IMG/VR virus record: IMGVR_UViG_3300033388_005341
Coordinates: 1-42,661 of that record
Reading direction: 5' to 3' (one strand)
Length of the DNA stretch: 42,661 nt
From: a virus
Under the pieces are notes generated by a model. That model made no database searches and was not told the origin of the DNA. It saw only the letters and a program-made list of their open reading frames with translations. This document shows, piece after piece, positions 8,601-41,447 of the stretch; the first letter of the stretch is position 1; each line of letters begins with the position of its first letter. Made by a program: the position numbers and the translations under genes.

Positions 8601-8884
8601 TTCGTCTTGAGAGAGCAGGCTCCGTATCTCACATCCTAAATATAAATATAATTGACGCTTTATCATTATCAGATAGAAAACTTTATATTCTTCATAATGA
8701 AGCTAGACGACAAAGAGCTCTTGATCTTATTAATACAGCAAAATCATGGGGAGCAAAAGAACATCAAAACGAAATAGAAGATGCTCTTCATATTCACGGT
8801 CCTTATACGGAAAATTTTTATGATGAACAATTGGACTCACTTTTTAAGGATATGAAATGTCAGACCAAGCCGCATTTAAAATAG
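8283..8884 (+). CDS. Tail assembly chaperone, long form by -1 frameshift (gpGT-like)
   Basis: The -1 frame is open from well upstream of the short form's stop to TAG at 8882-8884 and would otherwise leave a 256-base gap with no gene. A slip at the AAATTTA heptamer (8564-8570) gives about 200 residues. The added part contains SDRKLYILHNEARRQR and a long helix typical of the T domain that recruits the tail tube. It overlaps the tape measure start by 28 bases. This is the conserved programmed frameshift of siphovirus chaperones, and no independent start with a ribosome-binding site is seen for the second part. Confidence 0.78.
8564..8570 (+). promoter_or_regulatory. Slippery heptamer AAATTTA for -1 frameshift
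   Basis: In the chaperone's zero frame this reads A AAT TTA, a canonical X XXY YYZ heptamer: tRNA-Asn and tRNA-Leu can re-pair on AAA TTT. Slipping here enters the -1 frame that stays open for over 300 bases. A weaker alternative is the A-run at 8587-8591 (CAA AAA G), 17 bases further on. A clear stimulatory pseudoknot was not identified. Confidence 0.7.
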
Positions 8885-11800: not shown

Positions 11801-14800
11801 CTGCTGAAGTAAATGAAAAAGCATTATCCACTCAGCTTGCCGGATATAGTAATTTAGCGGATGTGATGTCTAATTATTTTAAAAAAGGATCAGAAGGGCG
11901 TAAAAGGCTGCATCAATTAGAAGTTGCATTTGGCGCTATTGAATTAGCCATGGAAGCAAAAAAGATGGCAACTAAGATAGCTGATACAGCGATTAGCATT
12001 GATCTTGAATTATCAAAAATGCCAACGCTGGCAGCTAATGCTATTCTAACCCAAGGTGCAGGCGATCCACTTACTGCATTCGCTAGAATGGCGGCAATGA
12101 CCGCATTGGTTGGCGGGATAATAGCTGCTGCCGGTGGTGCGTTTGGTGGCGGCGGCGGTGGGCATACATCCCATGCAGCTATAACCGGAACAGTTCTTGG
12201 GTCAGACGAATCAAGCAAATCTCTTGAAAATACAATAGACATGTTAGAAGAGTTTAGGGATGCGAATATCGCAAAATTAGATAGTATTTATAAGGAAATG
12301 CAAGATTTGAATACTAATATTTCAGGTCTTGCAAATTCGATTGTTAGGAATATCGGCGATATTCCGATTGCAAAAATGGGGGAACCTATCGCTGGAAAAA
12401 TAGCTGGGGCGCAAGGTCGGATTATTGGTGATCTTTACGAGAGGTTTGTTCCTGTTTTCGGTGTATTCGTTAGCAAAATTTGGCATGCTGTAGGCGATGT
12501 AGCTAGTTGGGCAGCTAATGCCGTTTTCGGCGGAAGAAAGAGAATAACTGCACAAGGTATTAGTATTAAGGAATCTACTATAGCTGATATACTTGAAACT
12601 CAAGCAGTTGATACTAGAGCCTATTATATAACAAAAACGCATGGTGGATTATTAGGGCATACAAGAAGAACCCCCCATTATCGTGATCTTGATGAAAATA
12701 CTACTGATCTTCTTAACAAACTTTATGTAAGCATGAGCACATCTTTAGTTACATTAGCTGAAGATTTAGGGACATCAGTACAAGATGCGCTTGATTATTC
12801 TTTTGAAGAAGTTAAACTTAATTTTAGGAAATTGTCCGGTGAAGAAATACAAACGAAACTTTCAGCTTTTATATCTACCACAATGGATAAAGCTACTGAT
12901 GAAATTTTTGGCAAATTTCTTCGTAAATACCAAAAAATTGATGAAGGCTTGATGGAAACAGGGTATAGATTAATCACCACAAAAGAAGTTTTATTATCGG
13001 TATTCGAGGATACGGGACAGGCGTTTGAGTTAGCTACAGCAAGTATCAATGAGTCAAATCTCGTTGGTTTGTTTTCGGGCGGGATAGTAAAACTTTTAAC
13101 AGTTGTCAAAAAAAATATATTTGATTTTACACAAGCGATCGCTGATTCATTTGGTGGATTAAAAGAAGCGTATGATGCTATTTCAAATTATGCCGATAAA
13201 TTTCTTACCGAATCGGAAAAACAACAGAATGTCATAAAACACCTAACTGATGTATTTGATAATGATACTATGACAAGTTTAAATTTGGCGCTCCCTCAAA
13301 CCAGAGATGAATTCAAAAAGTTAGTTAAAAGTCTTGATATAACGACCGAAAGTGGATTAGCAGCATATACAACATTAATAAAAGCAACGGATTTAGCAGA
13401 TTCTTATTACAGTATATTAGAAGAAAATAGAGAAAAAGCTCAGGATATTGTAAAGACAACGGCTGATATGGCATATGAACTTAGTCTTGCTTCCGGTGAA
13501 ATATCTCAATATGAACAGAATATTTTAAATATTCATAAAAAAAGCGATGCTTATTATGATTCTTTAGTTGACAACGGCGTGTCTCTTGAAGAGGCCACTG
13601 CCAAAACAACCGAGTGGGCTGCTGCTATGTCTGAACTTACCAAGCAGGAAATGATAAACAACACCACCCGGAACTTAACCATTCAATTGTTACAAGCACA
13701 AGGGGAAACAGAAAAAGCTCTGACTATGCAACGCGAAGATGAAATTAATGCACTACGAGATACGTTCGGTGATTTAGCCGATCCGATGATAGAAATCCAA
13801 CGTGAAATATGGAATCTTCAAGATGCATCGGAAGTAGCAGCTTCAGCAATGAAACGGCTTGCAAACGTTATGTCGGATTTTTCCATTGCTTCAAAGGTAG
13901 CAGATATATCGGGCTTATCTGATCAATTTCAACTGCAGCAAGTTGCTCTTAACTTAGGATGGCTCGAATCCGGAATTCCTTCAATCTCGGATATTAGAGA
14001 CTTTGTTGAAGGTGTTTTAAGTTCATCTGTTTCTGAAATTAGAGAACAAGCCGTTTCATTCGGCATGTCCACTTCCGATTATCTTGATAATATCGGTTTT
14101 CTTTATTCTGGTCTTCAGAAAATGGATGAAGCGATTGCTCAGGCAGGTGATACATCCAAACGGGCTGCGGCGGCATTACGGGATTATGCAGATAATCTAA
14201 AATCTCAAATCAGCGCAGTAGAAAGTATACAAGATCTTCTTAATAATATCAGGGGCGAAGGTAACCTTGCACCGGTTCAAAGTATGGAGTATTTTGAAAA
14301 CAGATATGCCCAACTTCGATCTGAGGCTATGTCCGGTGGGGAGAGGGAAACGAAAATTTTTACTGATTTCACCACAAAATATCTTGAATTTGCCCAAAAT
14401 TACGGAGGTGATTATCAAAGTGTTACAGATATGGTTATCGGTGACTTGGAAGATTTGCAAACATCTATTGCCGGGGATAAAACTTTAGCTGATTTATACG
14501 ATCAATTAGAAAGAGTTAATGCCAGATTGGATGCTGTAAGCCATAATACTTATGCGACAGCTACCGGTATTGCCGACGCTATTGGTAAAACTATGGAAGC
14601 ATTATTGGAAGGCTTTAAAGATCAGAGTCTTCCATGGGAAGATTGGATGAAGGAAACTCGGCAGGATTTTTATGGGATTTTGGATTCTTTTAGAAATGTA
14701 ATGGCAACAGGTATACTAAATATTGGAAAAGGATTTGAAGCTGGTAAAGGATGGTTAGGGGAAGGAAGCGGCATAGATATAATTGAACTTGCCACAGGGG

Positions 14801-15246
14801 CGTATCAGGCTTCCATATATGGTGAAGGTGGAGATAAACTATATGATATGATCTTTGAGAATGTTCAGGCCATAACAAGTAGTTTGCTATGGCGTATGAT
14901 GGAACAAACCCCGGAGATTATGACTAAATGGACAGAAGCACCACAGCATCATTTTGCCTCAGGCACAGATTCTGCTCCTGGGGGCTTAGCATGGGTGAAT
15001 GAAGAAGGCCCGGAACTGCTCAACTTGCCACAGGGAACGCAAGTAACAAGTCATTCCGACACCATTAAAATGATTACTGACGCAGTAGGTAATGCAATCG
15101 AAAATACCGCCCCCGGTGGACAAAAAATAACAGTTTTAGTAAATGTCAAAATGGGAACAAAAGAATTTAAAGACTTTACTGCAGAGACTATACGAGTTGA
15201 TAAGGAAACACAAAAACAGATTAGAAGGGTTGCAGCAAATGGGTAA
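8857..15246 (+). CDS. Tail tape measure protein
   Basis: At 2129 residues this is the largest protein in the window. It sits directly after the chaperone and sets tail length: at about 0.15 nm per residue the tail should be near 320 nm. The N-terminal 200 residues are coiled coil rich in Lys/Glu (KLKNEIARLNQEVKKLKDDI). Hydrophobic segments follow (GYVGIAALGAIIAASLGSAY near 550; AALVGGIIAAAGGAFGGGGGG near 1090), which could insert in the host membrane during DNA ejection. Base composition shifts inside the gene at roughly 11.6-13.5 kb. No lysozyme motif was recognised. Confidence 0.92.
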   Translation: MSDQAAFKIALDVVAKLDKLDKEFVNFGNRIEKIMNNAVSRAFAKPKTTSFKPIVDQAQRSVEKINRSFGDLSIEKSLKTQYTKARKIFEDLIKLQEKLVRPKGISGRAISNQERDLRIAVEKNKNAVDAYITTLKKKILTENKATASEVKAKASTKKLKNEIARLNQEVKKLKDDITKLNQKVKASHKPAEDFDNIITKWWKTFGRVAIGFTVAYRAMNAFEKSISTTIDLVKEAIIDSGELSALQGELATYYMISGGSIENYNKYLERAVVNVEALRLVSLHSMATIEELSVAYSELAQHGVFIQPEEMNRFAAVNDGLIQIAKSTGDNVKQIRSEWQGLLDGQMKATNAFVRFLKTSGVITKEQVKQLKGLGNKGAIVRGILESAGDAFLKMQETMLRSKPEAALAKWRDALKSGILLAIQDVSKDKGLQGTNIFAEILVDHIENLNKLFSDRTARSAFKDGIDAIASSLDKVLTMMEGFIINTVKFSSWLAQNSEQLIKWGKVLGTIILYKSVAGVLVDIGTKVRLLTTELTTSGKTIRSLMTGYVGIAALGAIIAASLGSAYASLKLLADLELLPDKIDRVKDKLKGLNKIIADEESKTPSDVYGIKISSELVKLKTLKEETIKTLNELQARYDKAAKKDPMANAIEGITKPLEASWKAIKTILDKMLPDLKLSFADFDKTVNDALTDTMGKTSWKNVLEGELKAATKFYDDFIQIVKEGNIEKYEIYKYYAQQELKDQIKVQQDKLKVATDAMYDLLKVTDSLAILKPASSVFEATDLDIFVENADDVKILDIAITNLIKTIGELQDKLNKVDASILETEINKLSDDLNTELLNVKISYAFDTEGFEKESDKILEIYRDKIKAIIANNKTLTDGETKAIVEFLDKVDAAIKKVTETEKERIKLIDDYLNKKSEFSFADDDLSQTANLVKGVQNITDAWEKQAEVLKAIKEQYGEITKGAVLSAEEKKKALEGATKAAEVNEKALSTQLAGYSNLADVMSNYFKKGSEGRKRLHQLEVAFGAIELAMEAKKMATKIADTAISIDLELSKMPTLAANAILTQGAGDPLTAFARMAAMTALVGGIIAAAGGAFGGGGGGHTSHAAITGTVLGSDESSKSLENTIDMLEEFRDANIAKLDSIYKEMQDLNTNISGLANSIVRNIGDIPIAKMGEPIAGKIAGAQGRIIGDLYERFVPVFGVFVSKIWHAVGDVASWAANAVFGGRKRITAQGISIKESTIADILETQAVDTRAYYITKTHGGLLGHTRRTPHYRDLDENTTDLLNKLYVSMSTSLVTLAEDLGTSVQDALDYSFEEVKLNFRKLSGEEIQTKLSAFISTTMDKATDEIFGKFLRKYQKIDEGLMETGYRLITTKEVLLSVFEDTGQAFELATASINESNLVGLFSGGIVKLLTVVKKNIFDFTQAIADSFGGLKEAYDAISNYADKFLTESEKQQNVIKHLTDVFDNDTMTSLNLALPQTRDEFKKLVKSLDITTESGLAAYTTLIKATDLADSYYSILEENREKAQDIVKTTADMAYELSLASGEISQYEQNILNIHKKSDAYYDSLVDNGVSLEEATAKTTEWAAAMSELTKQEMINNTTRNLTIQLLQAQGETEKALTMQREDEINALRDTFGDLADPMIEIQREIWNLQDASEVAASAMKRLANVMSDFSIASKVADISGLSDQFQLQQVALNLGWLESGIPSISDIRDFVEGVLSSSVSEIREQAVSFGMSTSDYLDNIGFLYSGLQKMDEAIAQAGDTSKRAAAALRDYADNLKSQISAVESIQDLLNNIRGEGNLAPVQSMEYFENRYAQLRSEAMSGGERETKIFTDFTTKYLEFAQNYGGDYQSVTDMVIGDLEDLQTSIAGDKTLADLYDQLERVNARLDAVSHNTYATATGIADAIGKTMEALLEGFKDQSLPWEDWMKETRQDFYGILDSFRNVMATGILNIGKGFEAGKGWLGEGSGIDIIELATGAYQASIYGEGGDKLYDMIFENVQAITSSLLWRMMEQTPEIMTKWTEAPQHHFASGTDSAPGGLAWVNEEGPELLNLPQGTQVTSHSDTIKMITDAVGNAIENTAPGGQKITVLVNVKMGTKEFKDFTAETIRVDKETQKQIRRVAANG

Positions 15247-15272
15247 TATTTGTCATGTAGGAGGTTGCTAAA

Positions 15273-15746
15273 TTGGCCGCAAAGGAAATGCATGATTATC
15301 TATCAGATGTAGCTGCCGATTGTGTTACGACTTTATCCGTAACACCTGATGCAGTCCTTACTGAAAAAGGACGGAAACATCAAGTTCTGCATATATTTGA
15401 CGATGCTTCTGTTGTTGGAGTATCAATCAATGACGACTCTTACTTTGAAGTGACTCTTCAATGGGATGTAATATCCGAATCCGATGCCGGATTAATTTTA
15501 GATATGTGGCATGATAAAACCAAAGCAAACGGCATAGAAAATATGTTTTATTGGGTTCATCCGATAGACGGGCATACATATACGGTACGATTTTTAACAG
15601 AAATTGAAAGGGCTTATTCACAGGCGCTTGGAATTATGCAAAGAGTTTCTCAAGTTACGTTACGTGTTGAAGGGATGAAAAGTTTATTTGAAACTTTAGC
15701 AGTAATCGGTGATCATGCCATTGGCGGTATTGGGGAGGAAAATTAA
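15273..15746 (+). CDS. Minor tail protein (tail tip, distal-tail-like)
   Basis: A 157-residue protein between tape measure and hub. A TTG start at 15273 is chosen because AGGAGG (15259-15264) is eight bases away. The first ATG (15288) would be 23 bases from it. Alternating beta strands (DSYFEVTLQWDVISE; HTYTVRFLTEIERAY; QVTLRVEGM) fit a distal-tail protein that caps the tube and anchors the hub. No enzyme motif is visible. It could also be a lambda gpM/gpL-like tip protein. Confidence 0.6.
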   Translation: MAAKEMHDYLSDVAADCVTTLSVTPDAVLTEKGRKHQVLHIFDDASVVGVSINDDSYFEVTLQWDVISESDAGLILDMWHDKTKANGIENMFYWVHPIDGHTYTVRFLTEIERAYSQALGIMQRVSQVTLRVEGMKSLFETLAVIGDHAIGGIGEEN

Positions 15747-15749
15747 GAT

Positions 15750-18494
15750 ATGAGTATAAGTTGGCTATTTGAAATTAATTCTTATAGATATTCTACCAAA
15801 ACAACTACGTATAATGGCGATTCGTATCTTGCGAAGATTATACCTGATTCTTTTAACGGGGTAACAATGCGGTGCAGTATTGATGGTCATTTGCTTGCAC
15901 CGAACGATGTTGAGTTCGAGATTAGTAATGCCGATGGTGGTTTAAGCCGATCTGATGTTGAAGGTTATGATTGTATAATCAGAAAGATTACCGGGACGGC
16001 GCAAAGTCGGGTATGGAAGTTTAAAATCAAAAGAGCTGTTCCATATTACGGCAAACTTAAATGTTATTGTGTGGATTTTTTGCAGGAATATCTTGAGGGG
16101 ACTTGGCCTAAAACATTACATCCTAAAGAGATTTGGCCGTCAGATGATTTTGACCCGGATACTTTGAATGATTTTTGTGTTCCGGTGGTGTTAGGAACAG
16201 CATACATTCCAATTATGTCAGTCAATACAGGAACTGAGAGATTCTATGTTATAGGGGATGATACCGCCCCGACTTATACAATATCTGAAGTAACAGATCC
16301 CCACGAATGGCCGGGTGTAAGTGTTTACGACAGCGGGTCTTATACTTTTAATCAGTCGGATAATAACGGGTATAAACTGGCTCAATTTTTAATCCAAGAC
16401 GGTAATAACGGATTATTTTCAGCAGGCGACGGGTGGTACCCACCATTGGTTAAGTTTTCCCGGAGCGATACTGTTTCCCTCACCAGTCCTGAAGAATGGC
16501 TTGAATATATCCTTGAAGATTTTGGTGTGGCATCCGCTGATATTGATACTGGTGAAGGCAGTTCTTTTGTTGCTGCCGGAGATATTTATGCAGCTCGTTC
16601 TCAAACTTTTAACGGTGGATTTTGGAAAAAGGAAAACAGAGAATCTTTAATTGCTAATTTATTAAGCAATTGTGATTCAATGCTTGTTGTAACAGATAAG
16701 ATTGAATTACACCCGTTTGACAAAACATCAGTAAAGACATTTACCAAAGCGGATGTTATAGAGAATTCTTTCTCATCTGCTCCCATCACACAATCTCATT
16801 TTGATGGAGGTCGGGTAGCTTGGCCGAATGCGGATAAACCGCAAGATAAGTTTCCCGGTAAAAGTGTAGTTCCTTTATACACTGCGCAGACTTCCATAAC
16901 CAATCCGGCAGGAGATGTTTTTTATTACCGATTTGATTCCACAAGTCAAAACGCTCAAGATGCAAGTGTTTTACATTTTGCTAAACAATATTTACAAAAA
17001 GATCAGATTCGTTTTGAATCGGAATGCTCCAAAATTTCCAGCATTGATACCATACGTCCGGGGCAGGTAATTACATTAAATGATGCTATTTTCGGCGCTT
17101 CGTTTGATTTGATTATTGAATCTATATCATTTAATTATGACAATTCCGTTAGTATCGAAGGTGTGCGGCTTTTATATCTTGAAGACTGGAATGATATGAG
17201 TTCAAGCGAAATTACTATTACCGGTGATTCAAGCTCAGGTTGGTCGGTCGCAATTATAGGAGATGCCGGTGTTTTACAAGGGGATGTAAATTGGTCAGCA
17301 GTGCAAGATGATGATAGTAATAAACCTGAGGATAATGCTGATGTCACCTCCCAGCATGCCGGGAATTTAGTTGACAACCCGAATTTCGAGGCCGGGGATG
17401 TTGGATGGACATATATATATTCGGGTTGGTCGATTGAAACCGGAAATCAAATGTTAGGCACGTATTGTGCTGTTAATAATGGTAGCGATGCTCAATTACA
17501 TAACAATAATAAATTTCCTGTAGGCGCAGAAGAGCGATATTTAATTCAAGGATGGGTAAAAGCCGATGCAGATGCGGATGGCAGTGGTACTATTCGCCTT
17601 CAATATTATACAGATGGAGATGAATTAATATCCAATAGTGTTTTATATAGTGCCGCTTGTAGTTCTTGGCCTACAGCATGGACGTTTAAAAGAGCAACTG
17701 CGATAGTCCCGGCAACGGCGGCATATGCTATAATGACATTCCATCGTTGGGATACCTCAACTACAGGTAATATTTATATTGATAACGTATCCTGTTCTCA
17801 AATTCTTATAGACGCCGATGTTGATGTATTGCAGACAACCAATGCCCCTGCGGCTGCTAATGCTGATGTCACCGGAGACAATACGGCGAATGATGTTGAA
17901 GTTGGTGGTGGTAGAAATGTAGCGGAAGCTGGGGCTGACGTCACCGGAAACAATACGGCAAATAATACCACTTATGTGCATGGATCACAGACCCTATCCG
18001 GGAATCAGTATGGAGTTTATGGCGATCTCAAACTTTATGATGGCGCGGATTTAATTTTTTATGACTCCGCATCTACATCGGTGTTCAGAATATACAACGA
18101 TCCGGATTGGATATACATCGCCTCATCGAAAGATTTAAACTTTCAAGTAAACGAGTCCCATCAAATGCACATCTGCGCCGGGCTGGGGACAGACATTGAG
18201 ATCGATACCGACTATATTGATATTTGGGTGGATCATTATTCATGCATTAAGTTTGAATATGATTACATCACTATTTATACGCCTGAAATCAGCTGCACCA
18301 ACGTTGTACCGAGAGCAGATAATACCTATCATCTGGGAACTTCATCAGCGGCATATACGTATATCTACACATATGATCTTTATATAAAAGGCAATGTCAG
18401 CATTAACGGCAATGCCGGATGGAATGGAACCTTCACCAATGGAGATGGTGCCACTGTAACAGTAACCGAAGGAATAATAACAGGAGTAGCCTAA
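15750..18494 (+). CDS. Tail hub / tip attachment protein with carbohydrate-binding-like module
   Basis: A 914-residue protein following the distal-tail gene. The first ~480 residues look like a baseplate hub: beta domains with charged loops (NDVEFEISNADGG; DTIRPGQVITLNDAIFG). A linker with PEDNADVTSQH (about 525-536) is of the kind seen in tail-tip proteins of other phages. Then comes a jelly-roll-like segment opening with LVDNPNFEAGDVGW, a pattern common in carbohydrate-binding modules. Two copies of ADVTGxNTAN (about 705 and 729) are a short tandem repeat. The C terminus resembles a fibre tip. It probably mediates host recognition. Confidence 0.72.
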   Translation: MSISWLFEINSYRYSTKTTTYNGDSYLAKIIPDSFNGVTMRCSIDGHLLAPNDVEFEISNADGGLSRSDVEGYDCIIRKITGTAQSRVWKFKIKRAVPYYGKLKCYCVDFLQEYLEGTWPKTLHPKEIWPSDDFDPDTLNDFCVPVVLGTAYIPIMSVNTGTERFYVIGDDTAPTYTISEVTDPHEWPGVSVYDSGSYTFNQSDNNGYKLAQFLIQDGNNGLFSAGDGWYPPLVKFSRSDTVSLTSPEEWLEYILEDFGVASADIDTGEGSSFVAAGDIYAARSQTFNGGFWKKENRESLIANLLSNCDSMLVVTDKIELHPFDKTSVKTFTKADVIENSFSSAPITQSHFDGGRVAWPNADKPQDKFPGKSVVPLYTAQTSITNPAGDVFYYRFDSTSQNAQDASVLHFAKQYLQKDQIRFESECSKISSIDTIRPGQVITLNDAIFGASFDLIIESISFNYDNSVSIEGVRLLYLEDWNDMSSSEITITGDSSSGWSVAIIGDAGVLQGDVNWSAVQDDDSNKPEDNADVTSQHAGNLVDNPNFEAGDVGWTYIYSGWSIETGNQMLGTYCAVNNGSDAQLHNNNKFPVGAEERYLIQGWVKADADADGSGTIRLQYYTDGDELISNSVLYSAACSSWPTAWTFKRATAIVPATAAYAIMTFHRWDTSTTGNIYIDNVSCSQILIDADVDVLQTTNAPAAANADVTGDNTANDVEVGGGRNVAEAGADVTGNNTANNTTYVHGSQTLSGNQYGVYGDLKLYDGADLIFYDSASTSVFRIYNDPDWIYIASSKDLNFQVNESHQMHICAGLGTDIEIDTDYIDIWVDHYSCIKFEYDYITIYTPEISCTNVVPRADNTYHLGTSSAAYTYIYTYDLYIKGNVSINGNAGWNGTFTNGDGATVTVTEGIITGVA

Positions 18495-18790
18495 TGGAAA
18501 TAACATATGGGAATCAGGAAATAGTCCGTTTTATGTATGACGTGGTTGATAAAAAACTGGTGCTTACCGTCAAGCAGGAAATTCTTGAAGACGGGGTTTT
18601 AAAAGATCATATCATGCCCTCAATTGTTGCACGAAATGAAGATTTTGAGCCACTTCTTGAAAGACTATTGCCAGTTACCGATGGAGCTCGGAATAAAATT
18701 GAAACAGAAGCTAAAAAGATATTGCAGGAATCTTGGGAGAAGAAAAAAGATCAAAGAAAAAATGGAAAAGCAAATAAGGAGATGGTATAA
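18494..18790 (+). CDS. Small protein between tail hub and fibre, unknown
   Basis: This 98-residue protein starts at ATG 18494, sharing one base with the hub's stop (TAATG), so it is probably translated by coupling. Strands at the start (VRFMYDVVDKKLVLTVKQEI) are followed by a highly charged helix at the end (KILQESWEKKKDQRKNGK). The same frame is open further upstream inside the hub gene, but that part is a shadow. I recognise no family. Position suggests a tail-associated or assembly role. Confidence 0.65.
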   Translation: MEITYGNQEIVRFMYDVVDKKLVLTVKQEILEDGVLKDHIMPSIVARNEDFEPLLERLLPVTDGARNKIETEAKKILQESWEKKKDQRKNGKANKEMV

Positions 18791-18945
18791 TGGAACAATC
18801 ACAACCCGCAGTACCGCTGGAAGAGTTAGCAATTGTATCTTTCAATAAAGATATTCAATTAGCCATATTGCAAAAACAATTAAAAGAAGCAAATCGACAA
18901 ATTCAAATTTTAGAGGCAAAATTAAAAGATACGAATAAAAACTAA
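18790..18945 (+). CDS. 51-residue coiled-coil protein, unknown
   Basis: It starts on the last base of the preceding stop (TAATG at 18788-18792). The protein is 51 residues, and its second half is a clear amphipathic helix (QLAILQKQLKEANRQIQILE), probably a coiled coil. A hairpin follows at once. Coupling and the hydrophobic heptads argue that it is a real gene. It may be a small fibre chaperone or spanin-like partner, but nothing proves this. Confidence 0.55.
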   Translation: MEQSQPAVPLEELAIVSFNKDIQLAILQKQLKEANRQIQILEAKLKDTNKN

Positions 18946-18946
18946 C

Positions 18947-18965
18947 TTGCAGGTGCAGCCTGCAA
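18947..18965 (+). terminator. Hairpin after small coiled-coil gene (weak terminator)
   Basis: TTGCAGG and CCTGCAA form a perfect seven-base stem around the five-base loop TGCAG, right after the stop codon at 18943-18945. The downstream bases are AATAATTG rather than a T-run, so termination would be weak. It may partly insulate the fibre gene from upstream transcripts or protect mRNA ends. Confidence 0.4.
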
Positions 18966-18987
18966 AATAATTGCAGAGGTAAAAAAA

Positions 18988-20742
18988 ATGGAATACTTTG
19001 CGGATAGAGTGGGAGAAACCACTACTACGACCGGAACAGGAACAATTTCGTTAGCTGGAGCAAAACCGGGATACAGAACATTTGTGGACGGGATAGGTAA
19101 CGGTAATGCCTGCAAATACCTTATTATTAATTCATCAGGCGATTGGGAAATCGGATCGGGAACGGTTACAGATGCCGCTACGGATACATTAAGTCGTGAT
19201 GCTACCCCTGACAGTTCAAGTAATGCTGGAGCACCGGTTGATTTTCCCACCGGGACTAAGAGTGTTTATTGTATTGTAAGCGCTTCTCAGCTTTCGGGGA
19301 ATATAGAAATTGGTGCACAAGCAACAGGAAATCGTGCTGCTTACATAGATTTTCATGGTGATGATACTTATACTGATTACGGTCTTAGGTTAATAAGAGA
19401 CGATACTGGGGCAAATGCTCCTTCAAAATTGATACATCGAGGAACAGGGAATTTACAATTGTACATACAAGAAGCCGGTGACATGGAGTTTTTTACAGAT
19501 TCATCTACAAGAGTAGTAATAGATAGTACTGGCAACGTCGGCATCGGGACGACGAGTCCAACACCAGCCTATCGATTAGATGTATATGGTAAAACACGAA
19601 TACATGGGAATCAATTAATAATTGAACAATCACAATCATCTTTAACTAATACACAGATACAGAGTACGGGCTTTTCGTGGGTTGGAATAGTTTTAGGATC
19701 CGGTAATGGTACAGATGAATACGGGAGTCTCTCTTTGGGAGGAACCTACCGTTCCTCTGGTTCACCGATGGGAAAATTAGGATTTCATTCTTTTAATACT
19801 GACAACAACTTGGCCGCTACTGTTGGGGCATTGATTTGTTCGCTTAGTGATAATTCAACACTTACTGATTATGGAATGCACTTAGCTTTTCACACGAGAG
19901 AAAGTGGTGGGTCTTTAGCGGAAAGGGTAAGAATTTTAAATAACGGCAACATCGGCATTAATACATCAACTCCTTCTGAAAAATTATGCGTACCTGGCAA
20001 CATGGTGGTCGGGAACGCTGCTGTAGGCACTTCAGGAACAAGAGTTCTCATGCTCACGAATGGCGCAGTCCCGACTTCAAGCCCGGCTAATGCGGTTCAG
20101 TTGTATGCGGAAGATGTGACAAGTTCCAGTGAATTGAAGGTCAGAGATGAGGCGGGGAACGTAACCACTCTTTCTCCCCATAATTTCAATTTGTTTACTC
20201 CCGATTCTTCGTATGAGCTTCCCTGGTCATATTACTCGAGAAACGAATATATCGGCAAGGAAATTAATATTGATATGTACGGAGCGATTAAAGCAATTGA
20301 AGAATTGGCGGGGAAGAAGTTCATTTACACGGTTGATATTCCCAAAAGAGATTGGAATATTGATCAAGAAAAAATTAAAAAAGATAAAGATCAACAAGCT
20401 CTAAAAGAAGCTCTTGAAGAAGAAATTGAAATTCCGCTGTCAGATGCTATGGAAACGGTGGAGGAAACAGAACGGATTGAAACGGGTAAAAAGACAGAGA
20501 TAGGCTATGAACTTGATCTTGAAGCGGGAGAGGTGAAAGAGGTGGAAAAAGAAATCCCGGTTTACGAAAATCAACCTACCGGGAAAATAAAGAAACAGTT
20601 AAAACCCGGAGTTAGATTTGATGAAGCAACCGGTAAATTTTTCAGGAAAAAGACTGAAGCAGACGTTACAATAACATCGTATATTGAAAAACAACCACCC
20701 CAATGGATTCAAGATAGAATCGGGGATGCTAAAACAAAATAG
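18988..20742 (+). CDS. Tail fibre / receptor-binding protein
   Basis: A 584-residue protein rich in Gly, Thr and Ser. The first 100 residues resemble fibre N termini (DRVGETTTTTGTGTISLAG; VTDAATDTLSRDATPDSS). The centre contains GNVGIGTTSP (about 184-193) and the related GNIGINTSTPSEKL (about 325), motifs common in beta-helical or trimeric fibres, where they stack as short repeats. The last 170 residues change character to charged helices (KIKKDKDQQALKEALEEE), possibly a trimer-forming or chaperone tail. It probably binds the host surface. Confidence 0.72.
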   Translation: MEYFADRVGETTTTTGTGTISLAGAKPGYRTFVDGIGNGNACKYLIINSSGDWEIGSGTVTDAATDTLSRDATPDSSSNAGAPVDFPTGTKSVYCIVSASQLSGNIEIGAQATGNRAAYIDFHGDDTYTDYGLRLIRDDTGANAPSKLIHRGTGNLQLYIQEAGDMEFFTDSSTRVVIDSTGNVGIGTTSPTPAYRLDVYGKTRIHGNQLIIEQSQSSLTNTQIQSTGFSWVGIVLGSGNGTDEYGSLSLGGTYRSSGSPMGKLGFHSFNTDNNLAATVGALICSLSDNSTLTDYGMHLAFHTRESGGSLAERVRILNNGNIGINTSTPSEKLCVPGNMVVGNAAVGTSGTRVLMLTNGAVPTSSPANAVQLYAEDVTSSSELKVRDEAGNVTTLSPHNFNLFTPDSSYELPWSYYSRNEYIGKEINIDMYGAIKAIEELAGKKFIYTVDIPKRDWNIDQEKIKKDKDQQALKEALEEEIEIPLSDAMETVEETERIETGKKTEIGYELDLEAGEVKEVEKEIPVYENQPTGKIKKQLKPGVRFDEATGKFFRKKTEADVTITSYIEKQPPQWIQDRIGDAKTK

Positions 20743-20787
20743 CAAAAACGACAACTGAAACCGGATTAACTGAAAAGGAAAATGTGC

Positions 20788-21030
20788 ATGGCTAATGGGA
20801 TAATATCCAAAGAAGATTTTGAAACGATTGGGGATACAAATATTAAATTAAATATTCTCTTTGGGACTATGATTGATATAAAAAATATTATGCACAATCA
20901 GGATAAAAAGATAAAAAAAATTGAGAATCGACCATTATATGACAAAGTCAGCTCATTTGCAGGGGGTGTCATAGGCGGAATTATTGCGATGCTGGGTAAA
21001 ATTTACTTTGATTTATATGACGGAGGATAG
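20788..21030 (+). CDS. Holin-like small membrane protein (XhlA type)
   Basis: Eighty residues starting at ATG 20788, eight bases from AAGGA. An in-frame ATG at 20782 is too close to that site. The N-terminal two thirds is a charged helix (IDIKNIMHNQDKKIKKIE). The C terminus is one membrane segment (FAGGVIGGIIAMLGKIYF). Coiled coil plus a single C-terminal membrane helix is the plan of XhlA-like lysis proteins. It lies four bases upstream of the endolysin candidate, which fits a holin role. Confidence 0.65.
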   Translation: MANGIISKEDFETIGDTNIKLNILFGTMIDIKNIMHNQDKKIKKIENRPLYDKVSSFAGGVIGGIIAMLGKIYFDLYDGG

Positions 21031-23986: not shown

Positions 23987-24199
23987 ATGAGTGGAAAAAT
24001 ATCTGAAATTATCGCAAATAACACGAAACAAACAACAATAAAGATAACAAAGGAAATGCACCAGAAGCTTAAAATGTTAGCTTACGCTAAAGATTTAAAG
24101 ATTTACGAGCTTATGTTTAAAGCTCTCGATGTGTATATCAAAGAGAATGAAAAAATCTTGAAAACCTTTTTATCAGGTGAAAATGAAGAATGCGAATAA
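23987..24199 (+). CDS. Ribbon-helix-helix-like regulator
   Basis: A 70-residue protein. A strand (QTTIKIT) is followed by two helices (KEMHQKLKMLAYAKDLKIYELMFKAL, split here at AYAKDLK), the plan of ribbon-helix-helix DNA-binding proteins. Acidic residues end the chain. Such proteins bind palindromic operators as dimers. A candidate target is the palindrome at 25353-25369, about 1.1 kb downstream, which is speculation. Overlaps the next gene by ten bases. Confidence 0.55.
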   Translation: MSGKISEIIANNTKQTTIKITKEMHQKLKMLAYAKDLKIYELMFKALDVYIKENEKILKTFLSGENEECE

Positions 24200-36279: not shown

Positions 36280-36954
36280 ATGAATCTCGTAATTACAAAA
36301 ATTGACGCCGTAGACATCCAAGATGCGTGGTTTCAGTGTATCGCTAGAATACTGGAGGACGGTTTTAAATATGAAATTCAACACGGCTCTTACATAGGGC
36401 AGACACGGCTTGAGTTCGATCATATCGTCATATACATCAAACATCCTTATTCAGAACCTTATGACACTATGCTCCCTCAGATACCGATTCATCTGAATAT
36501 TCCAAATCCTGTGGCAAACGGATATGTGGAGCAATACCTGCCGTATCTGATGACGGATCACATCGAATCGGGTGAACAATATACTTACGGAGCGAGAATT
36601 TGTGGGCAAATCCCCCACTGGATTGACGTGCTTAAAAAAACTCCAAACACCAATCAGGCTGTTTTGCAAGTCGCCCGGCAAGATGATTATCAGCTAGATG
36701 ATCCCCCTTGCCTGCGGCACATTGATATGCGGATTAGAGAAAATGCGTTAATTTTTTACCCTTATTTTCGATCTTGGGATTTGTGGGGAGGATTTCCCGC
36801 GAATCTCGCCGGAATCGCCGTAATGCAGAAAACCATGGCAGATGAGATCGGTGTTGTGGCAGGTCCGATCGTGGCGGCTAGCAAAGGGCTGCACATTTAC
36901 GGCTACGTTGAAGAACTGGCGAAGATCAGGGCTGGAAAATCCCTTTTCCCCTGA
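36280..36954 (+). CDS. Thymidylate synthase-family enzyme (dUMP C5-modifying)
   Basis: A 224-residue protein aligning with the second half of thymidylate synthases: nucleophile C144 in DPPCLRHID, phosphate-binding R164-S165 with D167 in YFRSWDLWGGFPANLAG, N175 at the place of E. coli Asn177, and H205-x-Y207 in KGLHIYG. Known family logic is that Asn here selects uracil, whereas dCMP hydroxymethylases have Asp. It should therefore act on dUMP to give dTMP or a 5-hydroxymethyl product. It is GC-richer than the phage average and shorter than classical TS (264), like archaeal and some phage forms. A terminator follows. Confidence 0.8.
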   Translation: MNLVITKIDAVDIQDAWFQCIARILEDGFKYEIQHGSYIGQTRLEFDHIVIYIKHPYSEPYDTMLPQIPIHLNIPNPVANGYVEQYLPYLMTDHIESGEQYTYGARICGQIPHWIDVLKKTPNTNQAVLQVARQDDYQLDDPPCLRHIDMRIRENALIFYPYFRSWDLWGGFPANLAGIAVMQKTMADEIGVVAGPIVAASKGLHIYGYVEELAKIRAGKSLFP

Positions 36955-36986
36955 AAAAGAACCTCCCCTTTTTTCAGGGAAAAAGA

Positions 36987-37007
36987 GTAAGTTGTTGAAA
37001 ACAACAT
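36987..37007 (+). repeat. Junction hairpin downstream of TS-like gene
   Basis: GTAAGTTGTTGAAAACAACA has a GTTGTT/AACAAC stem with a four-base loop. It lies 33 bases after the TS-like stop and before the terminator. Another copy is 100 bases on (37093). Same family as 1697, 26431 and 42279. Confidence 0.6.
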
Positions 37008-37038
37008 TCTTTTCTTTTAAAAAAGGTTACTTCGGGGG

Positions 37039-37075
37039 GCGCCATTTCTCTAGAGAGGGATGGCGCTTTTCTTTT
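37039..37075 (+). terminator. Intrinsic terminator after TS-like gene
   Basis: GCGCCAT (37039-37045) pairs with ATGGCGC (37060-37066), with CTCTAGAG in the loop able to extend the stem. TTTTCTTTTTC follows. This is a clear rho-independent terminator for rightward transcription of the orphan-gene region. Confidence 0.8.
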
Positions 37076-37092
37076 TCTTCCTCACGATTATT

Positions 37093-37115
37093 GTAAGTTG
37101 TTTCTAAAACAACAA
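37093..37115 (+). repeat. Junction hairpin, second copy in gene-free region
   Basis: GTAAGTTGTTTCTAAAACAACA repeats the 36987 element with a longer loop. No gene adjoins it, which argues against a purely translational role. An A-rich stretch and AAAGGCCTTTC-like inverted sequence follow. Confidence 0.55.
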
Positions 37116-37269
37116 AAAAGGCCTTTCTCTTTTTTAGAGAAAAAGGGAAAAACCTTTTCTAAAAAGGAAAAAAGGGAAAGTTTTGGCGTTTTTCTAGAGT
37201 TTTGTTAAACAAATTGTTTGCGCTTAAACCCCTGTTTTTATTGGCTTTTCTTTTGTGAAGAAAAGCCCT

Positions 37270-37606
37270 CCCTATATCCAAAATCAAAACAAGCTTCCCC
37301 GAAAATCGTTTAACAAAGCTCTAGACCCTCTCAAGGCCTAGAAGGCGCTTTTGAGCGAGCTCTAGCCGCTCAAAAGGCCTAGAAGCCTCTGAGAAGGCTA
37401 GAGGGTTGAGGCTGAGACTAGAGCTCTGTTTCTTTTATTTATTTTTTTTTTTTTTTTTTTTTAATATATAACCTAGATCTAGCGTTTTTTCGCCTAGAGC
37501 TCTTTTTCTAAAACTAGAGATTTTGAGAGAGCCTAGAGCTCCTCAGGGGCCTAGAGCTCTGTTTAACAAAATATCGGGAAGCTTGTTTCAAAATGGGATA
37601 TGGGGA
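37270..37606. repeat. Imperfect inverted repeat with ~55-bp arms
   Basis: The arm 37270-37324 (containing AACAAGCTTCCCC and GTTTAACAAAGCTCTAG) is the approximate reverse complement of 37551-37606 (CTAGAGCTCTGTTTAACAAA then CGGGAAGCTTGTTT). A third related copy in direct orientation lies at about 37628-37682. The interior carries a nested perfect stem CTTTTGAGCG/CGCTCAAAAG (37348-37357, 37367-37376) and the 21-T tract. Confidence 0.6.
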
Positions 37607-37860
37607 CTCCTTTTGTTTTGGCCGAAAACCCCTATAAAATCAACCACTTACCCGTAAACAAAACGTTAAACAAAGCTCTAGCCTCCTCCCCTCAAAAAAG
37701 AGCGCCAAAATTTTTTAAAATCTAGAGCTTCTAAAACTTCTAGAAAGGGATTTTTGAAAACTCTAGAACGCTAAAAACTCTAGAACGGGATGCTAGCGAT
37801 ACTCTCGACCAAAAAAACTACTAGTCTAACTAATCGAACCTTCTTCCTTTCGGAAGAGCT

Positions 37861-37966
37861 CTAGGAAAGCCCTTTGCTCTCTAGGAAGAACTATCGCAAA
37901 GCCCTTCGGGCGTCGGGCGCTAGGAACTAGGAAAGCCCTTCACTCCCTAGGAAGAACTATCACAAA
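37861..37966 (+). repeat. Tandem 40-bp direct repeats
   Basis: 37861-37900 and 37927-37966 match at 36 of 40 bases (both begin CTAGGAAAGCCCTT and contain CTAGGAAGAACTATC). Diverged partial copies follow near 37993 and 38055. Spacing is 66 bases. They look like a decaying tandem array, possibly binding sites. Confidence 0.65.
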
Positions 37967-38429
37967 ATCTCTAGGTTTCTCGGGCGCCAAGTTCTAGGAA
38001 GGGCTTTCGCTCGATTTTCCGGGCGCTCTTCGGAGCGCTTCAGTTTTCTCAGAATCTAGGAAGAACGCTCCCCAGCTCTAGGGCAAAGCCCCAACCCTTG
38101 TAAACTGGGGCTTTGAGCGATGTAGTTTTCTAAAGGAAAAATGTAGAACAAAGCGCCTGAGCTCTAGGACAAAAAGCGCCTGAGATGTAAAATGGGCGCC
38201 CGCCCTACAAAGCTGGGGGTTTGAGAGATGTAAGTAGAAAAAATTGCCTAGTATTTTGTTAGACAAAAAGTAGGAAAAGTTTGTAGGATGAAAAAATAAA
38301 AAAATAAATGAAAATTGAAAGGTTGAAAACCTCAACTAGTTTTGAGCATATACCCGAAATGCAACCAAAAACCCTAAGCTGTAGAATTCTACAAGAAAAT
38401 CTCTAGGCTGAAAATCTCAAAATGTAAAG

Positions 38430-38612
38430 TGACCGGGTGGTCATGATCTAGCTGTTACTTTGTGGTACTGTCACTTTGTGGCACCCGAAAAAAGGGGTCA
38501 AGTCCACTCTTGACTGCAACTTTTTTTAAACTTAACGTTAACGTCAACTAGAGGTTTTTTCAAAAAACTGGAGGTTTTTAAACCTCGAAAACGGTGACTG
38601 ACACGTCAGTCA
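38430..38612. repeat. Cluster of perfect palindromes
   Basis: In 183 bases there are five inverted repeats: TGACC-GGGT-GGTCA (38430-38443), GTCAAG-TCCACT-CTTGAC (38497-38514) followed by a T-run, TTAACGTTAA near 38535, GAGGTTTTTAAACCTC (38571-38586) and TGACTGAC-AC-GTCAGTCA (38595-38612). A direct repeat ACTTTGTGG occurs near 38457 and 38473. Such density is typical of origins or regulatory hubs rather than filler. Confidence 0.6.
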
Positions 38613-38631
38613 GTTTCAGCCCCACAAAAAA

Positions 38632-38661
38632 AAGGCGCCGGAGGAAAACCCCCGGCGCCTT
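38632..38661 (-). terminator. Intrinsic terminator for the leftward genes
   Basis: AAGGCGCCGG pairs perfectly with CCGGCGCCTT around a ten-base loop. On the minus strand the stem is followed by a run of nine T (plus-strand A at 38625-38633). It ends leftward transcription of the three minus-strand genes. Confidence 0.85.
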
Positions 38662-38739
38662 CGATTTATCAAATGCAAAAATCCCCGAAAACCGTTGATC
38701 TAGGCCACCTCAACAACCTAGGCCAGTCATAAACTGTAA

Positions 38740-39161: not shown

Positions 39162-39557
39162 TTACGTTTCTTCAGCAGTCAATTTTTTATATAACGCCAT
39201 AGCCATTGCGATATTTTTTCGCCTTGCCATATCCATAATATCTACGACGTTTTGAAGCGTCAAAACGCCGTCATTAACTCCGTCAATACATGCCTGTTTC
39301 AATGTGTCAATAGCTCCACCAGATGCAAACTCAATTTGAGTGAAGTATTGCGTTACCTTTTCTTGTGCATCCGCTTGAGATTTGATGCGAGGACGCAAAG
39401 TTACATCAAAGTTACTTTGTTTCACGGCAATAGCAAACAATACCTCATTGATTTTACTTCCATACAGCTTAAGAGCATCGTCATAGTTAGCTGGTACATC
39501 GACCTTTACGCTGCTAAATTTTGCTTTTGCTTGGTGGTTTTTAATTGTTCTTTTCAT
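39162..39557 (-). CDS. 131-residue minus-strand protein, unknown
   Basis: The start at 39557 has AAGGA seven bases upstream. The frame is open further upstream but without signals. N-terminal basic segment (MKRTIKNHQAKAKF), then helices (YDDALKLYGSKINEVLFAIAV) and a C-terminal helix pair. First gene of the leftward operon, with a promoter at 39705-39733. Possibly a regulator opposed to the rightward anti-defence operon, by position only. Confidence 0.6.
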   Translation of the reverse strand: MKRTIKNHQAKAKFSSVKVDVPANYDDALKLYGSKINEVLFAIAVKQSNFDVTLRPRIKSQADAQEKVTQYFTQIEFASGGAIDTLKQACIDGVNDGVLTLQNVVDIMDMARRKNIAMAMALYKKLTAEET

Positions 39558-39660
39558 CGGTCTATCCTTTATATATAAGATTATGGTTACATATGCTCGC
39601 AGTGATTGCATCACCATCATATACACGTTACATAACCATGTATATTGCTTTGTACTCAAA

Positions 39661-39735
39661 GCTTGACAATACATGGCAAGCGCCATTTATCTCAGTTGAT
39701 TTCACATATAACAAGGGGGTTCCTAGTTGTCAAGC
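39661..39735. promoter_or_regulatory. Inverted repeat GCTTGACAA ... TTGTCAAGC flanking leftward promoter
   Basis: GCTTGACAA (39661-39669) and TTGTCAAGC (39727-39735) are exact reverse complements 57 bases apart, one containing the leftward -35 box. A regulator binding both could loop the DNA and shut the promoter. Confidence 0.45.
39705..39733 (-). promoter_or_regulatory. Sigma-70-type promoter for leftward operon
   Basis: On the minus strand TTGACA (39733-39728) is a perfect -35, spaced 17 bases from TATATG (39710-39705), a four-of-six -10. The start of transcription would be near 39698, about 140 bases upstream of the 131-residue protein's ATG. Confidence 0.65.
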
Positions 39736-39898
39736 ATTTTTTTCAATATTTTTTTATTTTTTTTATTACTAGCCTTAACCCCGATAACTAGCTAAAATCA
39801 TTGAGAAAAAATTGCATTTTTTCTTGACTTTTCCACAAAACCTTGGTATCAGTGGATTCATGGACAGATATTGTTTTAAAAATTTAAAGTTTAAAAAC
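39736..39898. other. AT-rich gap upstream of sigma-54-like promoters
   Basis: This stretch has T and A tracts (39738-39768) and no credible gene. It could hold an activator-binding or bent-DNA region upstream of the -24/-12 promoters, as such promoters usually require an enhancer-bound activator 80-150 bases upstream. I see no clear activator palindrome. Confidence 0.35.
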
Positions 39899-39914
39899 TG
39901 GCACAATTTTTGCT
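39899..39914 (+). promoter_or_regulatory. Sigma-54 (-24/-12) promoter, first copy
   Basis: TGGCACAATTTTTGCT fits the consensus TGGCACRNNNNTTGCW at every position, with GG and GC correctly ten bases apart. The preceding base C also fits. It points rightward toward the operon at 40198. A near-duplicate lies 80 bases downstream. Confidence 0.7.
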
Positions 39915-39932
39915 ATGCAATTTCCATGCCAA

Positions 39933-39949
39933 ATGACGCAGTGCGTCAT
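39933..39949. promoter_or_regulatory. Perfect 17-bp palindrome ATGACGCAGTGCGTCAT
   Basis: ATGACGCA and TGCGTCAT flank a single G. It lies between the two sigma-54-like promoters, starting 19 bases past the first -12 element and 30 before the second -24. This is a natural place for a repressor or activator dimer. Confidence 0.6.
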
Positions 39950-39978
39950 AAAAAACTTTTTTCTCGATTTTTAAAAAT

Positions 39979-39994
39979 TGGCATGATTTTTGCA
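39979..39994 (+). promoter_or_regulatory. Sigma-54 (-24/-12) promoter, second copy
   Basis: TGGCATGATTTTTGCA matches the consensus except T for C at the sixth base, a common substitution. The surrounding TTTAAAAAYTGGCA and a downstream CCATGCCA are shared with the first copy, so the unit was duplicated. The start would be about 195 bases ahead of the ATG at 40198. Confidence 0.7.
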
Positions 39995-40083
39995 ATACCA
40001 AAAACCATGCCAACAAAAACTCACCTAGGCGAAAATTTTCCGCTAGTAAAAATCCCAGAAAATTCAGGCGCAAAAATATTTTA

Positions 40084-40160
40084 CTGTCGAGACATCGCCT
40101 GGCTGTCGATACTCGATCTGTCGGGTGTCGAGACATCACCTGTCGAAAGCCCATCTGTCG
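40084..40160 (+). repeat. TGTCGA repeat array in leader
   Basis: Six TGTCG units occur in 77 bases (40085, 40104, 40119, 40126, 40141, 40156). Two are in the longer repeats TGTCGAGACATCGCCTG and TGTCGAGACATCACCTG. The array lies in the 5' leader between the promoters and the first operon gene. It could bind a regulator as DNA or RNA. Confidence 0.5.
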
Positions 40161-40169
40161 GGCTTTTCG
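40144..40169 (+). terminator. Leader hairpin, possible attenuator
   Basis: CGAAAGCCC pairs with GGGCTTTTCG around ATCTGTC, with one bulge. It ends 28 bases before the ATG at 40198, and the CTTTTT run after it gives a terminator-like outline, so transcription could be attenuated before the operon. Strength is uncertain. Confidence 0.45.
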
Positions 40170-40197
40170 GCTAACTTTTTAAAAAGGAGGTTAGAAA

Positions 40198-40458: not shown

Positions 40459-40618
40459 TAACAATTTAAGGATGCGTCGATTTAATAGTCGCATCAAAGC
40501 AGTACACGCCGTCAATAAATTAACCGACGGCACTCTGAAAAAAGATGGTGTGGTAATATATCACACCAATTTTAAACGACACAAACCCAAGCAAGGAGGA
40601 AAAGAAGATGAAAATTGA
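40439..40618 (+). CDS. 59-residue basic protein, unknown
   Basis: GGAAGGAG is seven bases ahead of ATG 40439, and the frame ends at TGA 40616. It overlaps the upstream gene by 20 bases and the next by 11. Strongly basic (NNNLRMRRFNSRIKAVH; FKRHKPKQGG). Probable nucleic-acid-binding protein. Confidence 0.55.
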   Translation: MWIVINNNNLRMRRFNSRIKAVHAVNKLTDGTLKKDGVVIYHTNFKRHKPKQGGKEDEN

Positions 40619-41060
40619 AACCAAAAGATTAGAAGAAGAATTTTCGCTAACGAAAGTATTGGCGAAGAAACAAGAACTTGGTGAGATAATTGCTTTAGAG
40701 TGGTTGGAGGAAAAGATGAGAAAATTGTATATCACAACAACAATCTCCCCTATGATGATGGGGGAGGGGGCTCGGATGATAGTCAAGGAGGTTGGTCATG
40801 ATTACATAGAGGCCAACCGAAACATGTGGCTAACCCGGCGTGAGATTATACACGCCGTAGGCCACGCAGTCACAGCGCCGTTTGTAGACGCTGCGACTGG
40901 GATTCCAGGAACTCACGCCAGAATAAATGTCCCCGGAGACGTCGGGGACACTATCCTGGCCGTGATACCATCAATCAGATTTGCTGAAGCCCGTGAATTT
41001 ACACGGGCTGAAGTAGAAGAGGCCGGCTACAAAATCTATGTAGCCGATATTATAGCATAA
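40608..41060 (+). CDS. DUF1874 / AcrIII-1-like ring nuclease (type III anti-CRISPR candidate)
   Basis: A 150-residue frame whose last 114 residues resemble AcrIII-1 (SIRV1 gp29, DUF1874): KLYITTTIS at the start, IIHAVGHAVTAPFVDAATG in the middle, GDTILAVIPSIRF and KIYVADIIA at the end. Catalytic His candidate H86 lies in the AVGH motif (His47 of SIRV1 gp29), and R124 with E127 fits the R85/E88 pair. That family degrades cyclic tetra-adenylate and so blocks type III CRISPR signalling. The domain begins at Met37 (ATG 40716), which has its own GGAGG (40706-40710), so the shorter form is probably the active protein. Confidence 0.75.
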   Translation: MKIETKRLEEEFSLTKVLAKKQELGEIIALEWLEEKMRKLYITTTISPMMMGEGARMIVKEVGHDYIEANRNMWLTRREIIHAVGHAVTAPFVDAATGIPGTHARINVPGDVGDTILAVIPSIRFAEAREFTRAEVEEAGYKIYVADIIA

Positions 41061-41075
41061 GAAGGGAGGGAAAAG

Positions 41076-41447
41076 ATGAAACGGTTAGATGATTATCTAA
41101 GAGATGTTCCTAATGAGTTAGAAGCCCCAGCTGGTTCTCTAACAGAACAAGCACTTTGGTATCAGCAAAAGCTTGAAAAACTTGCTCCAGATTATCACGA
41201 AGTTTCTGCGGTTTATCGAGAACTCAAAAACGCTTGGGCTACACTTCACAGATTCAAGTTTAGCGTGGAGCGGAAGCTAATCGAGATTGAGGAGCTAGAA
41301 CCGATTCTGGAACCAAAAGAGCAGAAGAAAAGGGGTTCTAAAAAAGGAAAGGCGCTAGATGCTTCTTTAAAGTCTAAACTTAAAGGTTTAGACATCCCAG
41401 AAGAGGATAAGGTGAAACTGGCGAGGACGCTTGGCATAGAAATTTAG
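41076..41447 (+). CDS. 123-residue coiled-coil protein, unknown
   Basis: GGGAGGG lies upstream. The first half has helices (LTEQALWYQQKLEKLAP; AVYRELKNAWATLHRF). The second is very charged with KEQKKRGSKKGKA and ends in a small helical domain. It is co-transcribed with the two anti-defence candidates, so it may act against host defence, by association only. Confidence 0.55.
   Translation: MKRLDDYLRDVPNELEAPAGSLTEQALWYQQKLEKLAPDYHEVSAVYRELKNAWATLHRFKFSVERKLIEIEELEPILEPKEQKKRGSKKGKALDASLKSKLKGLDIPEEDKVKLARTLGIEI

Follow-up and report, generated by a model that had tools for sequence, protein, structure and literature searches.

Between two convergent operons of a tailed phage we found a non-coding, repeat-built region of about 1.7 kb in which the tetramer CTAG is concentrated and which is organised around a long imperfect palindrome, and from its sequence we tentatively propose that it acts in cis, as a DNA array of protein-binding sites centred on CTAG and of an origin-, operator- or partition-like kind. 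The window (the whole stretch of DNA analysed) is a linear record of 42,661 bases encoding a terminase, portal, head protease, major head protein and tail fibre, together with glycosyltransferases, methyltransferase-like and radical-SAM-like genes and, at its right end, an ArdC-like gene. Relatives of the terminase encoded in viral contigs are 49-72% identical to it; those in genome contigs, spread over various phyla, do not exceed 36%. For the genes at 39162-39557 and 40608-41060, viral contigs yielded no confirmed relative. A near-identical phage fragment, L001, extends 2.4 kb beyond the window start on the upstream side. This extension carries a gene for a primase-like protein and small genes of the ribbon-helix-helix (RHH) type at L001 1093-1569 and 1747-2130, the latter assigned to that type by eye alone; the fragment and the window are further distinguished by indels of about 42-44 bp at ~9028 and ~9695, inside the tape-measure-sized gene 8857-15246. 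In another relative (L002:80-2659) a DNA polymerase-like gene carries an apparent intein-like insert (HACVDNETEILTPDGW...VTGNTHYL).

The flanking operons are convergent and terminator-ended, with a thymidylate-synthase-like gene (36280-36954) on the + strand and small genes on the - strand (Table 1). No open reading frame of at least 90 amino acids (translation table 11) lies in the stretch and the shorter ones match no family, in agreement with the sequence-only reading, in which no protein accounted for the region. Treating TAG as a sense codon was rejected, as the longest resulting frames (108 and 142 amino acids) also lack a family match. Since the CTAG enrichment begins within the first terminator and extends to the end of the - operon, the region looks like one continuous intergenic region and not a chimeric insert.

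Table 1. Features of the CTAG-rich region and of related sequences, in window coordinates
Feature	Position	Strand	Details
Small RHH protein gene	23987-24199	+	PHROG Arc-like repressor, E 5e-6; putative candidate binder
Whole intergenic region between convergent operons	36955-38739		38 CTAGs; repeat-built, non-coding
Intrinsic-terminator-like hairpin closing + operon	37034-37071	+	CTCTAGAG within stem, then T-rich tail
Terminator-like hairpin	37122-37146	-	
Imperfect palindrome, 488 bp	37194-37681		RNA fold z -10.4; DNA fold z -8.5
Element 1, 131 bp	37194-37324	+	CTAG at start and end; 17-bp terminal inverted repeats (CTAGAGYTYTGTTWAAC)
Left CTAG array, 6 sites	37321-37421		Spacings 17, 24, 17, 19, 20; two 33-nt direct repeats 41 nt apart
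A/T tract, 43 bp	37429-37471		98% A+T; near palindrome centre (37437.5)
Right CTAG array, 6 sites	37473-37554		Spacings 6, 15, 20, 19, 18
Element 2, inverted copy of element 1	37551-37681	-	CTAG at both ends
CTAG sites	37722-37824		Spacings 18, 23, 17, 13, 28; includes short tandem repeat ACTCTAGAACG
Direct repeats, units beginning CTAGGAA	37861-38081	+	40-nt pair, 90% identical, 66 nt apart; 18-nt family, 4 copies
Strong intrinsic-terminator-like hairpin closing - operon	38631-38662	-	14 pairs, T tail
CTAG pair, divergent control region	39769-39791		19 bp apart
CTAG-ended imperfect palindrome, divergent control region	40025-40046		CTAGGCGAAAATTTTCCGCTAG

The enrichment itself is pronounced. 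Thirty-eight CTAGs start within 37050-38718 (37 lie wholly within 37050-38720), compared with 3.2 predicted by the CTAG density elsewhere in the window (12-fold; Poisson P about 1e-27) and 7.7 expected from the dinucleotides of the region itself, which bears out the earlier count of about 38 in 1.7 kb. Other palindromic tetramers are less enriched, the next being GCGC (13 seen, 3.4 expected), GGCC (7 and 1.9) and AGCT (16 and 9.0). Many bacterial genomes contain little CTAG, and why this is so is still debated. Its supposed rarity holds weakly in this phage, where it is not avoided outside the region (78 seen versus 90 expected by a Markov estimate); its density there is 1.9 per kb for genes and 1.8 per kb for the remaining non-coding sequence. 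Along the window, most other genes carry about 2-3 CTAGs per kb and the eight kb of late genes at 13001-21000 carry none. Selection for stop codons, which CTAG would supply as TAG on both strands, was dropped because TTAA, which would likewise supply TAA on either strand, shows no excess (11 seen, 13.3 expected).

In the densest parts of the region a CTAG occurs about every 20 bases, and between the palindrome arms and the A/T tract mostly every 17-24 bp. Over the whole region 17 of the 37 consecutive spacings fall in this 17-24 bp range, compared with 4.3 under random placement, a regularity that is partly due to tandem duplication; no clear 10.5-bp phase was seen among the sites. With both strands merged, the flanks favour A, G, C and T at positions +1 to +4 (P 3e-4 for A+1, 2e-3 for G+2 and 9e-4 for C+3), giving a palindromic tendency, AGCTCTAGAGCT. 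A masked-repeat test of CTAG conservation yielded too few informative columns. As to the earlier suggestion of a decoy for a CTAG-binding or CTAG-cutting host factor, the regular spacing and shared flanks would fit a putative binding array.

The outer arms of the palindrome are the two inverted 131-bp elements, which align without a gap and are identical at 91 of 135 positions (67%; E 8e-14), the aligned stretch on the side of element 2 being 37547-37681. Long inverted repeats and 40-base direct repeats had been described from the sequence and are real (71 nt at 73% and 40 nt at 90% identity, respectively), and this inverted 135-bp pair exceeds the longest repeat claimed there. Masking CTAG before the alignment leaves the limits of similarity between the elements in place: on each side they coincide with a CTAG, except that three G residues just beyond one end are also shared. 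Mismatches between the copies are clustered (P 0.0014) and are rarer in the terminal repeats (4 of 34 positions) than in the interior (~40 of 97; P 0.001). The 17-bp terminal repeat has no match with up to 3 mismatches elsewhere in the window outside the region, within which partial solo element ends occur at 37418 and 38248. At the centre, a 50-bp stretch in the A/T tract is the fourth least stable duplex in the record. CTAG sites lie at roughly mirrored distances from the palindrome centre, and the intervening halves are not homologous; a search for residual homology between these inner halves returned none beyond CTAG placement, and the mirror symmetry is not a proof in its own right, being non-significant in permutations that keep the spacings (P 0.24).

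One reading of the defined element ends, which we consider unlikely, is that the two copies are non-autonomous, MITE-like mobile elements that inserted at CTAG with duplication of CTAG or TA as target, the solo ends being decayed remnants and many of the CTAGs scars of insertion or excision. CTAG-type target duplications are known from IS5-family elements, and the 131-bp elements share with MITEs and REP/BIME palindromes their terminal inverted repeats and defined ends; each copy has 17-bp repeats and is bounded on either side by CTAG, which may be a target duplication. The onset and end of similarity essentially at CTAG, the better conservation of the terminal repeats and the partial solo ends also argue for mobility. 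Unlike MITEs and REP/BIME, however, these elements have no dispersed copies, the two sitting in this region only with no further copy in the window or in 103 loci (about 2.6 Mb), and no transposase or RAYT gene was seen. Nor was a homologue found in phages or plasmids, and most of the CTAGs are not element ends.

Folded alone, the palindrome is far more stable than its shuffles both as RNA and as single-strand DNA (Table 1), and the sequence-only reading had included a large structured RNA among its possibilities. Such a non-coding RNA would be several hundred nt long and, as a T22 tract would disrupt a + transcript, most probably transcribed from the - strand; it is a doubtful explanation. 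Phages do carry RNAs of this kind, GOLLD and ROOL (PMC12286853), which resemble the present region in being non-coding with extensive predicted pairing over several hundred nt, and the stems here are concentrated in blocks. The two strands of the palindrome nevertheless fold equally (-175 versus -180 kcal/mol), as with any inverted duplication, and G-U-compatible mismatches favour neither (7 versus 10); the palindrome fold is by itself no evidence for RNA, because values of this size follow from an inverted duplication at 67% identity even if RNA is not under selection. In 500-base windows only about 36600-37700 is unusually well folded within the region, so that the claim of structure stands mainly there, with folding little better than chance at 37700-38600. 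Rfam returned no family match and none at gathering score, with GOLLD and ROOL also absent among hits with E up to 5; whereas these RNAs often lie near phage tRNA genes, the window contains none, and no promoter excess was found in the region. The presence of CTAG inside stems, previously taken as a sign of selection, is to some extent expected, since the tetramer is its own complement and any inverted repeat brings a second copy; short CTAG-to-CTAG units fold no better than shuffles. We likewise rejected the idea that each small hairpin stands on a CTAG foot, because among these units only the terminator segment and the pair of large elements beat shuffles.

A further folding outlier in 500-base windows lies outside the region at 40600-41300. 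Here strong hairpins recur every ~35-50 nt over 40470-41055, from non-coding DNA through the whole of gene 40608-41060 (STIV B116-like / phrog_5063), with z down to -11.6, stronger than in the CTAG region; a coding sequence so rich in hairpins is unusual.

Pattern and similarity searches of viral contigs, phages, plasmids and related loci returned no relatives of the region, the matches being at chance level or to unrelated coding sequence, and relatives with RHH genes showed no CTAG clusters in the fragments compared. Nothing directly relevant emerged from the literature on phage regions rich in CTAG, on target duplications of CTAG or on operators that contain it. The 103 loci contain one other non-coding CTAG cluster, in an unrelated high-GC phage represented by the near-identical L021 and L027, where 14 CTAGs fall within about 420 bases that separate convergent genes (L027:13268-13681 and the same place in L021; P 6e-14, uncorrected for choosing the maximum). 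This cluster is built of 79-nt tandem repeats with an inverted copy (folding z -10.7), and L027 and L021 differ by exactly one such CTAG-bearing repeat (3 versus 2 copies), showing that regions of this type can change fast. Rapid gain and loss of repeats may in turn explain why relatives are hard to find.

The same gain and loss, in a similar place in an unrelated phage, keeps alive the reading of our region as an unconstrained spacer between terminators that grew from a seed with CTAG through slippage and duplication and does no more than insulate the convergent operons. Nested repeats of several sizes and the position between convergent terminators also suit such a spacer. We give it a low probability, for the 131-bp elements have remained gap-free at 33% divergence with clustered mismatches, and the CTAG enrichment covers several unrelated repeat families as well as a separate control region.

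That control region, the divergent one at 39558-40197 (640 bases), contains 5 CTAGs compared with 4 in all other non-coding DNA (9 in total), and these include two CTAG pairs 18-19 bp apart (P 0.003). It also carries iteron-like CTGTCGA repeats at 40085-40162, which are a rival candidate for an origin or operator. GC skew gave no origin signal beyond gene strand; because its changes follow gene strand, it lends no independent support to an origin, which had been among the earlier proposals. What favours that proposal is the build, as the core is origin-like in its symmetry and has an A/T-rich, easily melted tract (37429-37471) with CTAG arrays, putatively binding sites, on both sides.

Repeat-rich viral origins and enhancers composed of imperfect palindromes include the baculovirus hr regions and herpesvirus oriL/oriS. 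The present region is like these by build alone, being non-coding with repeated imperfect palindromes, a short palindromic core and symmetric sites round an A/T-rich centre, and it is unlike them in belonging to a phage, in its CTAG core and in being a putative origin. MetJ boxes, the Arc operator and the plasmid omega and ParG sites are operator or centromere arrays bound by RHH proteins. With these the region has in common short palindromic sites at regular spacing (partly via duplication) in a phage that encodes RHH proteins; in contrast to their contiguous boxes, the CTAG spacing is about 20 bp and binding here is putative.

A protein-bound, cis-acting array is the reading that best accommodates these observations, because it combines the symmetric A/T-centred core, the regular CTAG sites with palindromic flanks and the constrained element length, and also because CTAG pairs recur in the control region and the phage has RHH genes. 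The array would have been built by repeated duplication, and a phage or host DNA-binding protein, for example one of the Arc/RHH-like proteins of the phage, would bind as a multimer to the CTAG sites that recur every ~20 bp in the symmetric core, between its inverted 131-bp elements and the A/T-rich centre. Its likeliest use would be in replication initiation, or in partition or operator control, beside the early control region. Against the cis-acting array stand the lack of relatives of the region in the collections searched, the absence of a GC-skew origin mark, a spacing that partly results from duplication and shows no clear 10.5-bp phase, the non-significant mirror symmetry, the RHH-bearing relatives whose compared fragments have no CTAG cluster, and the iteron-like repeats as a competing origin candidate. 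A broader and rather improbable extension is that symmetric CTAG-core arrays with an A/T centre, bound by protein and acting as an origin or a partition or control centre, represent an undescribed class of phage cis-acting region between convergent operons, for which the L021/L027 cluster would be a second, independently evolved CTAG array.

If the region is neutral repeat debris, it matters little. For a phage lineage without close relatives among cultured phages, though, the 12-fold concentration of CTAG in one symmetric non-coding region marks a place to seek a CTAG-recognising protein, and it may equally be a lead on how this lineage starts or controls replication.
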